Positions 55,964-60,833 of a stretch of 64,000 nt of DNA are shown here, piece by piece. Numbering within the stretch: position 1 is the first letter of the stretch; each line of letters starts with the position of its first letter. The notes under the pieces were generated by a model. That model ran no database searches, was not told where the DNA came from, and saw nothing but the letters and a program-made list of their open reading frames with translations. A program made the translations under genes and the position numbers. This DNA comes from Halomonas sp. 7T (GTDB lineage Bacteria > Pseudomonadota > Gammaproteobacteria > Pseudomonadales > Halomonadaceae). The DNA lies in assembly GCF_025643255.1 (NCBI RefSeq), contig NZ_CP087112.1, forward strand, positions 868,001 to 932,000, in the 5' to 3' direction.

Positions 55964-56052
55964 TAAGGTGAACACTGTTTGATAACTTTTCCCCCGCGGT
56001 ATTTGCCAGTTTTGTGCCAATCACCGCCGACACTAGAGCTAGACCACTGCCC

Positions 56053-56964
56053 ATGATCAGACAACGCACACTACAAAACGTTATCCGCGCCACTGGAGTG
56101 GGTCTGCACTCTGGAAAAAAAGTCCACTTGGCTTTGCGTCCGGCGCCGGCAAATACGGGCATTGTGTTCGTTAGAACCGATTTAGATCCTGTTGTGCATG
56201 TGCCTGCTCGTGCGGAATTGGTTGAAGACACTACGCTGTGCACTGCGCTCTCTAAAGAAGGCGTAAAAGTGGCAACAGTTGAACACTTAATGTCAGCGTT
56301 TGCGGGGTTAGGTATCGACAATGCCTACGTAGATGTTAGTGCCCCTGAAGTGCCGATCATGGATGGCAGTGCCAGCCCGTTTGTTTTTCTGATTCAATCG
56401 GCGGGCATTCTTGAGCAGGAGGCGCCTAAGAAATTTATCCGTATTAAGCGTCGTGTTGCAGTCAGTGATGGCGATAAAGAGGCCGTGTTTCTGCCGCATC
56501 AGGGCTTTAAAGTGTCGTTTGCGATTGATTTTGATCACCCCGTCTTTGAGCAGCAAAAGCAAACTGCACTGATAGACTTTTCAACGACCTCGTTTGTTAA
56601 AGAAGTCTCACGCGCACGCACGTTTGGGTTTATGCGCGATTTGGAATTTTTGCGCTCTAATAACCTGGCGCTCGGTGGCAGCCTAGATAACGCTATCGTG
56701 GTTGACGACTACCGTATCGTTAATGAAGGCGGGCTACGTTATGAAGACGAGTTTGTCAAACATAAGGTGCTTGACGCGATTGGCGATCTTTACCAGCTAG
56801 GTTACAGCCTAATTGGTGAATTTCGTGGCATTAAATCGGGTCATGCGCTCAATAATCAGCTTTGCCGTGAGCTAATGGCTCAGCCAGATGCTTATGAGAT
56901 CGTGACTTTTGAAGAAGAGAAGGCGGTTGCACCCATCTCTTATGCGGCTCCTGCCATGGCATAG
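56053..56964 (+). CDS. lpxC: UDP-3-O-acyl-N-acetylglucosamine deacetylase LpxC
   Basis: A 303-residue enzyme from ATG 56053 ([21 protein letters not shown]); the frame to 56014 has no similarity. Zinc ligands are H78 in VEHLMSA and H237 and D241 in [14 protein letters not shown]. LpxC catalyses the committed step of lipid A synthesis. In enterics its level is set by FtsH proteolysis through the C-terminus; the tail here (ending AAPAMA) has non-polar residues suited to that, which is only an inference. A strong terminator follows. Confidence 0.97.
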
Positions 56965-57016
56965 TCAGGCTTGCGAAAGTCTAACTGGTTGAAATATCGG
57001 TTTCTAGCCCCACCAT

Positions 57017-57044
57017 ATAAAGCACCGCTTAGACGGTGCTTTAT
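57017..57044. terminator. Bidirectional terminator between lpxC and dciA
   Basis: A perfect 11-base stem, ATAAAGCACCG / CGGTGCTTTAT, with a 6-base loop. Both arms end in A/T-rich sequence, though the T-runs are short. It separates convergent lpxC and dciA. Confidence 0.75.
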
Positions 57045-57062
57045 GCGTTTTGAGTAAGGGCT

Positions 57063-57536
57063 TTAGGCTTCACCTTTAGAGGAATGTGGCGCATGGGAGG
57101 CCAGGCGTTCTAGCGCTTTTTTGAGTGATGGGTCGTCGGTATCTTTTGCGCACTCAGCTAAGGTTTTTCCGGCGTTGCTAGAGAGCGAGCGCGTATAGCG
57201 TTTTGGGCTCTCTACTGGCCGTACTGGGCGGACTTTTAAGGTAAAGCCACTAACGCTTTCAAACCCTGGTAGCTGGTGCAGAAGGGTAAGCAGGCGATGT
57301 TGTTCGTAGCGCAACCACGTTAGCCAGCTCGCTTGGCCGCTAATCAGCGTTAATCGACCGTCACGAAACCCGCCCACAAAAATGTGCTCACGCATTTCTT
57401 CAGGTAAATGAGCGCGTAGATGCCGCTGTGCTTGGTCAATTAAGCGAGACTGGCGCATTAACTGCCCAATATCGCCAGACTTAGACAGCAGTTGGGTGAT
57501 GGGCTGTGCGTGAGATCGCTTAACCTTTATACTCAT
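57063..57536 (-). CDS. dciA: DciA-like DUF721 protein (helicase loader)
   Basis: A 157-residue protein with the DUF721 fold at about residues 10-105: helical start, then DGRLTLISGQASWLTWLRYEQHRLLTLL. The remainder is a Pro/Arg-rich, probably disordered tail. DciA is the ancestral loader of the replicative helicase DnaB in bacteria lacking DnaC. Its place between lpxC and secA, on the opposite strand, is shared by many non-enteric gammaproteobacteria. The family is poorly conserved, so the call rests on domain pattern plus context. Confidence 0.85.
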   Translation of the reverse strand: MSIKVKRSHAQPITQLLSKSGDIGQLMRQSRLIDQAQRHLRAHLPEEMREHIFVGGFRDGRLTLISGQASWLTWLRYEQHRLLTLLHQLPGFESVSGFTLKVRPVRPVESPKRYTRSLSSNAGKTLAECAKDTDDPSLKKALERLASHAPHSSKGEA

Positions 57537-57570
57537 ACGCCTAATTTCCGAGATGGCTTGATATAAATTT

Positions 57571-57599
57571 TTGGCAGTCCGAAGCGGGCGACCATAAAT
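57571..57599 (+). promoter_or_regulatory. Possible promoter of the leader ORF and secA
   Basis: TTGGCA (57571-57576) and CATAAA (57593-57598) lie 16 bases apart; each matches the sigma-70 consensus at four or more of six positions. They stand about 60 bases before the small ORF upstream of secA. Confidence 0.35.
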
Positions 57600-57659
57600 A
57601 GTTTACTTTATCGAACGCCAATCAGAAGAGCCTAACACGCCCAGGAGCTAGCCCACAGC

Positions 57660-58028
57660 ATGTCGTTAACACCAGAAGTCTTAACCGCTTCGCCACGGCG
57701 CCAGCGCCGTCATGGCCTGGCGCGCTGGTGGCTGGCTGGGCTTCTGGTAAGTTGTTTGTTGCCTGCAAGTTTACACCCATCAGATGCGTTTCGCGGCAGT
57801 GAGCGCAGCGTCACTATCTGTTTTTGGGTGCCTGCCATTTTGCGTGCGCAGTCTCAGTGGATTGCTAAAAAACGTCGTGCGCTTCGTTTCTGGGGTAGTC
57901 GCCTTGCGCGTCAGCTTATCCTGCGACCTGCTCATGCCCGGATATTACCGTTGGTTAAACGGCGCCTAGTTGCAGCTAAAGACGTGCTGACTCAGCGCGG
58001 CCCTCCTTGTTTGCCCCTCCCGCATTAG
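57660..58028 (+). CDS. Small secreted-type protein upstream of secA; candidate SecM-like secretion monitor
   Basis: I do not recognise this 122-residue protein from any family by sequence. It has a basic N-terminus (RRQRRHGLARWW), a hydrophobic stretch at about residues 25-40 (LAGLLVSCLLPASL) with a possible cleavage site after SDA, a very basic middle (many Arg/Lys) and a C-terminus with Arg113-Gly-Pro-Pro116 six residues before the stop. AGGAG lies 12 bases before the ATG, and secA follows 69 bases after the stop. E. coli secM occupies this same position, has a signal peptide and stalls at Arg-Ala-Gly-Pro four residues from its end. The wider SecM arrest motif is not present, so the role is a hypothesis. 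Confidence 0.6.
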   Translation: MSLTPEVLTASPRRQRRHGLARWWLAGLLVSCLLPASLHPSDAFRGSERSVTICFWVPAILRAQSQWIAKKRRALRFWGSRLARQLILRPAHARILPLVKRRLVAAKDVLTQRGPPCLPLPH

Positions 58029-58076
58029 AACTACTTTATTTGCCTTATATATAAAGGGCGCCTTCATAAAGGTCGC

Positions 58077-58101
58077 TCATGATGATTTGGAATTTTCATG
58101 A
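58077..58101 (+). promoter_or_regulatory. Predicted hairpin covering the secA ribosome binding site and start codon
   Basis: Two copies of TCATGA (58077-58082 and 58096-58101) can pair, and after one mismatch four inner pairs (one G-T) extend the stem to a TGG loop. The second arm contains the secA ATG and the loop side holds the weak TTTGGA binding site. An earlier imperfect stem, GCGCCTT/AAGGTCGC, lies at about 58058-58076. Folding was judged by eye, without an energy calculation. Confidence 0.4.
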
Positions 58102-60833
58102 TTAATAATTTGTTACGCAAAGTTGTTGGCTCTAAAAATGATCGCGAAGTAAAGCGGATGCATAAAAATGTGCATGAGGTCAATAAGTTAGAGTCAGAGC
58201 TGGAAGGGCTAAGCGACGCTGATTTACAAGGTAAAACGTCGCTTCTTCGTCAGCGGTTAAACGAGGGTGAAGCGCTTGACAGCCTATTGCCCGAGGCTTT
58301 TGCCGTCGTGCGCGAGGCGAGCAAGCGAGTCATGGGCATGCGCCATTTTGATGTGCAGATGATCGGCGGTTTGACGCTACACCGTGGGCGCATTGCTGAA
58401 ATGAAAACGGGCGAGGGTAAAACGCTGGTAGCGACTCTGGCCGTTTACTTGAATGCGCTGCCTGCAAAAGGGGTGCATGTTGTTACTGTAAATGACTATT
58501 TGGCCCGCCGAGATGCCGAGTGGATGCGTCCGTTGTATGAGTTTTTAGGCCTTTCCATTGGCGTGATTTTTTCGGGTCAGAGCGGTGAAGAGAAGCGCTA
58601 CGCCTACCAATGCGATATTACCTACGGTACTAACAACGAGTTCGGCTTCGATTACCTGCGCGACAATATGGCGTTCTCGCTTGAAGACAAAGTGCAGCGT
58701 GGCCTGCACTACGCTATCGTCGATGAGGTGGATTCTATTCTCATTGATGAAGCGCGCACACCACTGATTATTTCGGGCGCTGTCGACGAAAATACCGATC
58801 TTTACGGTGTGGTAAACCGCCTTGCCCAGCATCTGGAAAAAGGCGAGGTGTCAGAAGATGAAGAGGCCACCGTGACAGGCGACTTCCTGCTTGATGAGAA
58901 GCAAAAGCAGGTAGAACTTACCGAGCAGGGCCATAACAAGGTAGAAGCCCTGATGCGCGCTGAGGGGCTGCTGGGGGAAGAGGATTCCCTTTATGCTGCG
59001 CAAAATCTTAATCTCTTACAGCATATGCATTCTGCGCTGCGAGCCCGGCATCTCTATCATCCCGATGTAGATTACATTGTTGCTGAAGACCAAGTCGTCA
59101 TCGTCGATGAGCATACCGGCCGCACAATGCCGGGCCGCCGCTGGTCTGAGGGGCTTCATCAAGCTGTTGAAGCCAAAGAGGGCGTTACCGTTCAGCGTGA
59201 AAGTCAAACGCTGGCATCTACTACCTTCCAGAACTATTTCCGCCTGTACGAGAAATTAGCGGGTATGACGGGCACGGCCGACACAGAAGCCTTCGAATTC
59301 CGTCAGATCTATGGCCTGGATGTAGTGGTGATTCCCACCAACCGTGTGCTGGCCCGTAAAGATCTGAATGATCTGGTTTTCCTGAGTGCGGAAGAGAAAT
59401 ACGAAGCCATAATTAAAGATGTTAAAGCTGAAACAGAGGCAGGTCGGCCAGTGCTGGTAGGTACCGCGTCGATTGAAACCTCTGAGTACCTTGCCCGTTT
59501 AATGCGCGAGGCGGGTCTGAAATTTAACGTTTTGAACGCTAAGCAGCACCAAAGCGAAGCGGAAATTATTGCTCAGGCAGGTCGCCCTGGGGCGATTACC
59601 ATTGCGACCAACATGGCGGGTCGTGGTACCGATATTATGCTGGGGGGCAATTGGGAAGCGGAAGCGGCAAAACTGCAAAACCCCACCCAGGAACAAATTG
59701 ACGCGTTAAAAGCTGAGTGGCAAAAGCGCCATGATGGCGTCTTACAAGCGGGCGGTTTGCACGTAGTAGGTTCTGAGCGTCACGAATCACGTCGCATTGA
59801 TAACCAGCTGCGTGGCCGTGCCGGTCGTCAGGGTGACCCAGGCTCCACACGTTTCTTCCTCTCCTTGGAAGATAGCTTGATGCGGCTATTTGGCTCTGAT
59901 CGCGTTAAGCGTTTGATGCAGGCGTTGGGCTTAGAGCGTGGGGAAGCCATTGAACACAAGATGGTGTCTAACGCCGTTGAGCGCGCACAGAAAAAGGTGG
60001 AAGGGCGTAACTTCGATATTCGTAAGCAGCTCCTTGAATATGATGATGTGGCCAACGACCAGCGCCGCGTTATTTATAACCAGCGCAATGAAGTGCTGGC
60101 GTCTGACGATATCTCCGATGCAGTGCTGGGTATTCGTGAAGAGGTCATGGAAGAGGCGATCAGCGATTTTGTGCCACCGCAGAGTTTGGTAGAGCAGTGG
60201 GATCTGCCGGGCTTGGAAGCACACCTAAAAACTGAGTTTAATCTTGATGCACCGGTGGTGCAGTGGTCAGCAGAAGATGAGCGGTTTAGTGAAGAGAAAC
60301 TCCGTGAACGCCTTCAGACCATGCATCGCGAAGCCTACGAAGCCAAGGTAGAGGCGGCGGGCGCTGCGTTAATTCGCCGCTTTGAGAAACAGGTGATGCT
60401 GCAGGTCTTGGATACTCGCTGGAAAGAGCATTTGCAATCGATGGATCATCTGCGCCGTGGTATCCACCTGCGAGGCTATGCGCAGAAGAACCCCAAGCAG
60501 GAATACAAGCGTGAATCGTTTGAGTTGTTCCAACATCTGCTCACCAATATTAAAGCTGATGTCACGCGTATTCTAAGCCATGTTCAGGTACGCCAGCCCG
60601 AAGAAGTGGATGCGCTCGAGCAGAAGCGCCGCGAAGAATTGGCCCGGGAAAAAGCAACGGCGGACAGCCGCCACGACGAAGCTGCCGCGCAAAATAGCAG
60701 CGGGCGTTCTCAGGAGTCGCAAGGTGCTGATGGACGTCCGCTTCGCCGGGAAGGGCCCAAAGTAGGTCGCAACGACCCCTGTAGCTGTGGTTCCGGTAAA
60801 AAATATAAGCAGTGCTGCGGTAAGTTAAGCTAA
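58098..60833 (+). CDS. secA: Preprotein translocase ATPase SecA
   Basis: A 911-residue DEAD-like motor. Walker A in MKTGEGKT (residues 102-109), Walker [21 protein letters not shown], the preprotein cross-linking domain with an acidic insertion, a second helicase domain ([35 protein letters not shown]) and a C-terminal zinc motif with C895, C897, C906 and C907 that binds SecB. SecA drives unfolded preproteins through SecYEG. The ribosome binding site is weak (TTTGGA), which fits the idea of translation coupled to an upstream ORF. Confidence 0.98.

Follow-up and report, generated by a model that had tools for sequence, protein, structure and literature searches.

The 122-codon ORF immediately upstream of secA in the 64,000-nt stretch of DNA analysed here (the window) very likely encodes a Sec-monitoring arrest peptide with control over secA, whatever the route. 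The initial annotation had proposed a candidate SecM-like arrest peptide between dciA and secA; this reading is well supported, not proven, although the ORF is not a lone candidate, arrest peptides of this kind being established (PMC10987492). A nascent chain not pulled by SecA/SecYEG would leave the ribosome parked at the arrest site, where it would cover mRNA that otherwise pairs with the secA leader, allowing secA to be translated; active export would pull the chain and end the arrest, upon which the mRNA would refold and secA expression would be damped. Faltering protein export would in this way lead to synthesis of more SecA, the export motor. The elements of the locus are listed below.

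56014-56964, + strand: lpxC (Pfam)
57063-57536, - strand: dciA, divergent (Pfam)
57643..57647, + strand: Shine-Dalgarno AGGAG of the upstream ORF, 12 nt before its ATG (sequence)
57660..58028, + strand: upstream ORF, 122 aa, putative secretion-monitoring arrest peptide; ATG start, TAG stop; homologs in genus and family
57660..57788, + strand: signal-like segment, residues 1-43, with Arg-rich n-region and hydrophobic WWLAGLLVSCLLPASL (by eye and alignment)
57789..57968, + strand: variable spacer, residues 44-103 (genus alignment)
57969..58007, + strand: arrest core VAAKDVLTQRGPP, residues 104-116 (conserved columns)
57996..58007, + strand: RGPP codons, R113-G114-P115-P116, the P115 codon at 58002-58004
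58008..58025, + strand: unconserved tail CLPLPH, whose mRNA would lie at about the leading edge of a stalled ribosome
58029..58097, + strand: intergenic secA leader, 69 nt, with predicted hairpins (sequence, folds)
58087-58091, + strand: weak Shine-Dalgarno TTGGA of secA (sequence)
58098..60833, + strand: secA, the presumed regulated gene (Pfam SecA_DEAD, P-loop_SecA, SecA_SW, SecA_PP_bind)

The basic observations behind the proposal all held: the frame opens with its own AGGAG and ATG, lies between dciA (on the opposite strand) and secA as judged by Pfam, and ends in VAAKDVLTQRGPPCLPLPH, with Arg-Gly-Pro-Pro six residues (CLPLPH) before the stop. A GGAG precedes the same ATG in genus loci as well. 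The apparent signal sequence reads by eye as an Arg-rich n-region followed by a hydrophobic segment, with a putative cleavage site after SDA. Among the 202 frames of at least 60 aa with a start codon on both strands of the window, the upstream ORF alone has RAPP, RGPP, RAGP or RAPG near its C-terminus; the sole other motif match in these frames lies 204 residues from the end of its frame. A promoter scan of 56950-58110 found no sigma-70-like site, and the same interval holds two terminator-like sites against 1.8 expected. Named homologs are annotated as hypothetical or uncharacterized, one also as 'Secreted protein'.

An ORF at the same place in relatives, suggested earlier as a check, was found throughout the genus and in most of the family. 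A protein search of 58 relatives recovered homologs in 37/37 genomes of the window's own genus, and a family-wide profile search recovered the ORF in 185 of 201 genomes, representing 20 of the 24 genera; the lone match among the 21 other relatives (G046) was rejected as spurious, having internal stops and lying on a contig other than that of secA. RGPP with its tail ends the frame in all 37 genus loci, RGPP is in frame with secA next in 79 of the 80 named loci (retained out of 168; labelled Vreelandella, Halomonas, Billgrantia and relatives), and among 24 family loci selected via the secA gene 23 carry RGPP and one RAPP. These three sets are free of selection for R[GA]PP; in the set of 139 parsed loci (147 offered, 90 kept as non-redundant) RGPP invariance is partly due to selection, the loci having been picked for R[GA]PP. 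In L139 (AP019416.1), the one named locus without in-frame RGPP, the frame is broken ahead of the arrest core and RGPP stands in another frame; we took this for a broken copy or an assembly error. RAPP was seen in a single locus, L087 of genome G063, which has a diverged core and a stop 191 nt before secA. Six loci came from genera without a match: a long frame precedes secA in four, one of which (L088) is an M23 peptidase by Pfam, there is none in L091, and the secA start of L089 was not found.

Alignment of 25 of the 37 genus homologs locates the conservation. The invariant columns are M1, R13, R16, R17, A21-A26, L28-V30, C32-P35, P58 and R62 in the N-terminal part (13 of the 15 columns from A21 to P35) and A105, A106, D108, R113, G114, P115 and P116 in the core, where V104 and V109 are also kept in at least 90% of the sequences. 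The expectation of conserved ends and a variable middle thus held for the signal segment, the core (consensus VAAxDVLTxRGPP) and the spacer but failed for the last six residues, conservation ending at P116. P35 and the P-site Pro lie 74-81 residues apart in 139/139 parsed loci, far enough for the signal to stand outside the ribosome. The RGPP codons differ synonymously across the 90 non-redundant loci, with four or five codons per position, indicating selection on the protein.

The ORF closely resembles a published group. In Fujiwara et al. 2024 (PMC10987492), the RQH family includes uA_RQH_Pseudomonadales, an RGPP uORF upstream of secA in the GTDB order Pseudomonadales; its tested member, which carries R109GPP, arrested ribosomes of both E. 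coli and B. subtilis in vitro, the arrested fraction being above 0.9. The same paper reports toeprints of RQH members with the third motif residue in the P-site; by analogy, the window peptide would be expected to stall with P115 in the P-site and P116 in the A-site. Against the criteria given there (PMC10987492), the window ORF is a uORF of a sec gene coding for a small protein without annotated function; it has what reads by eye as an N-terminal signal or transmembrane segment, the sequence of which hardly varies among the 25 aligned homologs, a RAPP-like motif near the C-terminus that is conserved among homologs, and a spacer of more than 30 residues between signal and arrest site. It agrees with uA_RQH_Pseudomonadales in both motif and place, each being a secA uORF with a RAPP-like motif. 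Arg at 109, as in the R109GPP representative, was counted in 6 of 139 family loci with a crude start rule.

The Halomonadaceae, which we take to lie within the GTDB order Pseudomonadales, appear to be where this group resides. We searched 53 genomes from 44 other families of the order (23 from 22 families and 30 adding 22 more) for frames of at least 67 residues in the first set and at least 60 in the second, ending between 420 nt before and 60 nt after the secA start. In 0 of 52 readable loci did such a frame carry RGPP or RAPP close to its C-terminus, the secA start of L200 being unreadable. This absence makes it very probable, on sequence grounds, that the published uA_RQH_Pseudomonadales is identical with the Halomonadaceae uORF group. 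What precedes secA in the other families is commonly an M23-like peptidase gene, seen by eye in 18 of the 23 genomes and by text pattern in 20 of the 30 further ones, with L210 probably one more; one M23-like piece, in L182, was checked with Pfam. L196 has an RDPP close to the end of a 70-residue frame that overlaps the M23-like gene in another phase, and this was set aside as chance. The order-wide profile search likewise gave weak matches in G249, G266 and at a second place in G005 (E 0.003-0.006), none of them at secA. A full-text literature search found no paper on a Halomonas arrest peptide or secretion monitor, nor on a Halomonadaceae SecM.

The peptide would work like SecM, yet by motif and homology it lies outside the SecM family, and its sequence agrees with the testable features of the RQH family. 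The peptide and E. coli SecM both precede secA after a short gap (61 nt in E. coli, 69 nt in the window), begin with a signal-like segment, carry an Arg-x-x-Pro core a few residues before the stop and have arrest-site mRNA that is predicted to pair with the leader of secA, whereas the motif is RAGP in SecM and RGPP here and the preceding residues are FxxxxWIxxxxGI and VAAxDVLTx, respectively. The earlier remark that the upstream residues do not match the E. coli SecM motif was therefore correct: SecM homology was not found (hhalign probability 0.3%, BLASTP E 0.069), no SecM model appeared among the Pfam matches of the 25 homologs at E up to 1, and membership in the SecM family was rejected on comparison of VAAKDVLTQRGPP with FxxxxWIxxxxGIRAGP. 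An independent origin fits this lack of detectable kinship. ApdP and ApdA share the R-x-P-P core but precede secDF and come from Alphaproteobacteria and actinobacteria. The five residues before their motif differ, and in their structures Pro-tRNA is accommodated while the bond is not formed (PMC10951233). The structural basis of arrest and of its release by pulling is treated in PMC10951299 and PMC10951233, and PMC12992588 describes RGPP as generally the most robust arrest among the motifs compared and states that EF-P does not rescue ApdA and ApdP arrest. VemP of Vibrio, upstream of secDF2, is likewise a Sec-monitoring arrest peptide of a salt-adapted bacterium but has an unrelated arrest sequence and target, its motif being quoted in PMC7897499, the earlier screen.

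The mRNA around the arrest site carries a further signal. We scored pairing as the summed predicted base-pair probabilities between positions -15 to +15 of the P-site codon and positions -45 to +5 of the secA leader, leaving L037, whose ORF overlaps secA, out of all pairing and opening tests. Across the 90 loci the score was 7.1 predicted pairs, against 3.1 in synonymous controls drawn from the family codon pool and 3.2 in controls built from each locus's own codons, with 40% and 39% of loci, respectively, at p<0.1; in the genus alone this level was reached in 13/36 loci. The loci share ancestry, so the z-scores of 6-10 overstate the significance of this excess. Two control segments further upstream reached p<0.1 in 12% and 8% of loci (family codon pool) or 19% and 9% (own codons), the nearer with a mild excess too (12%, z 2.4; 19%, z 3.2), whereas the farther one scored lower than its controls. 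Natural leaders paired more than leaders exchanged between loci (8.7 vs 5.9), and 24% of the 90 loci reached p<0.1 in this comparison. At 16 junctions of a long ORF with secA that have no upstream ORF of this kind, the scores were 3.1 vs 3.6 pairs with 1/16 at p<0.1; in these junctions the distance to secA is greater and the mock stall site was set arbitrarily. E. coli secM, a known switch, scored 10.5 vs 4.7 pairs (p 0.14). Pairing peaks between +7 and +17 relative to the P-site codon, roughly where the front of a stalled ribosome would lie, and on the leader side at -28 to -15 and at -9 to -6 (the Shine-Dalgarno), in a position profile drawn without a null and in which proximity by itself favours such pairs.

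We also predicted the cost of opening the secA start. Over the 90 loci it is 5.8 kcal/mol in the free mRNA and 4.4 kcal/mol with a ribosome at P115, against 4.9 in synonymous controls; the predicted stall opens the start in 56/90 loci (in 40 of them the gain exceeds 1 kcal/mol) and makes it less open by more than 1 kcal/mol in 17/90. The genus gave a modest result in a first opening-energy test (median gain 0.26 kcal/mol, 36 loci), and just 8/36 of its loci reached p<0.1 in the opening test. The window itself pairs weakly: 2.05 vs 0.57 in controls, but 0.3 vs 0.5 (family codon pool) and 0.27 vs 0.22 (own codons) when a longer stretch of upstream mRNA is folded, in which case its leader pairs with segments further upstream. 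Stalling barely alters the window's opening energy (5.16 to 4.94), the free value being under the 5.64 of its controls, and its leader is no more stably folded than shuffled versions (z -0.07). Modelled pairing of arrest-site mRNA with the secA leader is thus supported family-wide and weak in the window. Consensus RNA folding gave a clear arrest-site/leader structure in just one small clade of 4 loci. The 44 nt 5' of secA are gapless in much of the genus and could form two hairpins, one including the start codon; a covariation test of the latter was set aside because register shifts between clades were apparent by eye.

The weak pairing in the window favours a variant inside the main reading, in which the ORF stalls and the main route of secA control is translational coupling or mRNA protection, without a leader switch. 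This variant has a modest chance of being right. The ORF of genome G009 (L037 1586-2047, L206) also speaks for it, extending 44 residues beyond RGPP to a stop that overlaps the secA ATG, so that a stall there would act on secA otherwise than in the other 36 genus loci. It is opposed by the family-wide pairing excess, which is absent at junctions without the ORF, and by the gap to secA, at least 39 nt in 36/37 genus loci and at least 37 nt in 22/24 family loci.

We consider it improbable that the ORF encodes a small secreted protein that serves a task in the periplasm, with RGPP as a functional motif at its C-terminus. Residues R45, R49, P58, L61 and R62, just past the signal segment, are well conserved and would suit such a protein, but most of the would-be mature part is variable, conservation stops at the second Pro, secA adjoins in 79/80 named loci, and mRNA-level selection at the arrest site would go unexplained. 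Pfam and NCBIfam also gave nothing above cut-off for the window protein; the 25 homologs show scattered weak family matches, none convincing, the best being DUF4328 (E 8e-4, 4/25). The idea that the frame is no gene and merely accompanies a conserved leader RNA can be dismissed for practical purposes: the conserved 44 nt before secA would suit it, but amino-acid-level conservation with synonymous codon change and a start, Shine-Dalgarno and frame common to the loci speak against it, as does the fact that the single nearby Rfam match is under the gathering score and outside the ORF.

With the Sec-monitoring arrest peptide as the preferred reading, the Halomonadaceae, which are halophiles, gain a specific and testable account of secA control, and the ORF would be a further example of SecM-like regulation that converged on the same gene. 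Devices of this type are already known, the window holds a well-preserved example, and the published group very probably includes the Halomonadaceae; the present analysis adds the family-wide anatomy and the RNA evidence. Residues before RGPP that are under selection (AAxDVL) are now visible and should be useful for studies of the arrest mechanism, and the synonymous-codon test offers a route to the RNA half of such switches from sequence alone. A more far-reaching reading, less likely than not, is that the peptide arose at secA independently of SecM on the branch from which most Halomonadaceae descend, in the place mostly occupied by an M23 peptidase gene in other families of the order, that its RNA switch lies in the arrest codons and the free tail, and that it may tune SecA to export that changes with salt in these halophiles.

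Two further features of the family deserve mention. In L205 (593-3352, genome G125) no stop codon separates the arrest ORF from secA, and the two share one continuous reading frame that ends short of the SecA terminus; this may be an assembly error or a real fusion. L073, the one locus of the same genus inspected, has a stop. Within the hydrophobic segment, positions 57744-57755 correspond to LV[SG]C in all 25 genus homologs of the alignment, and some other genera have LFGC, LIGC, LVTC or LLSC. The LV[SG]C form also fits a lipobox, and the peptide may be either lipidated or cut by signal peptidase I.
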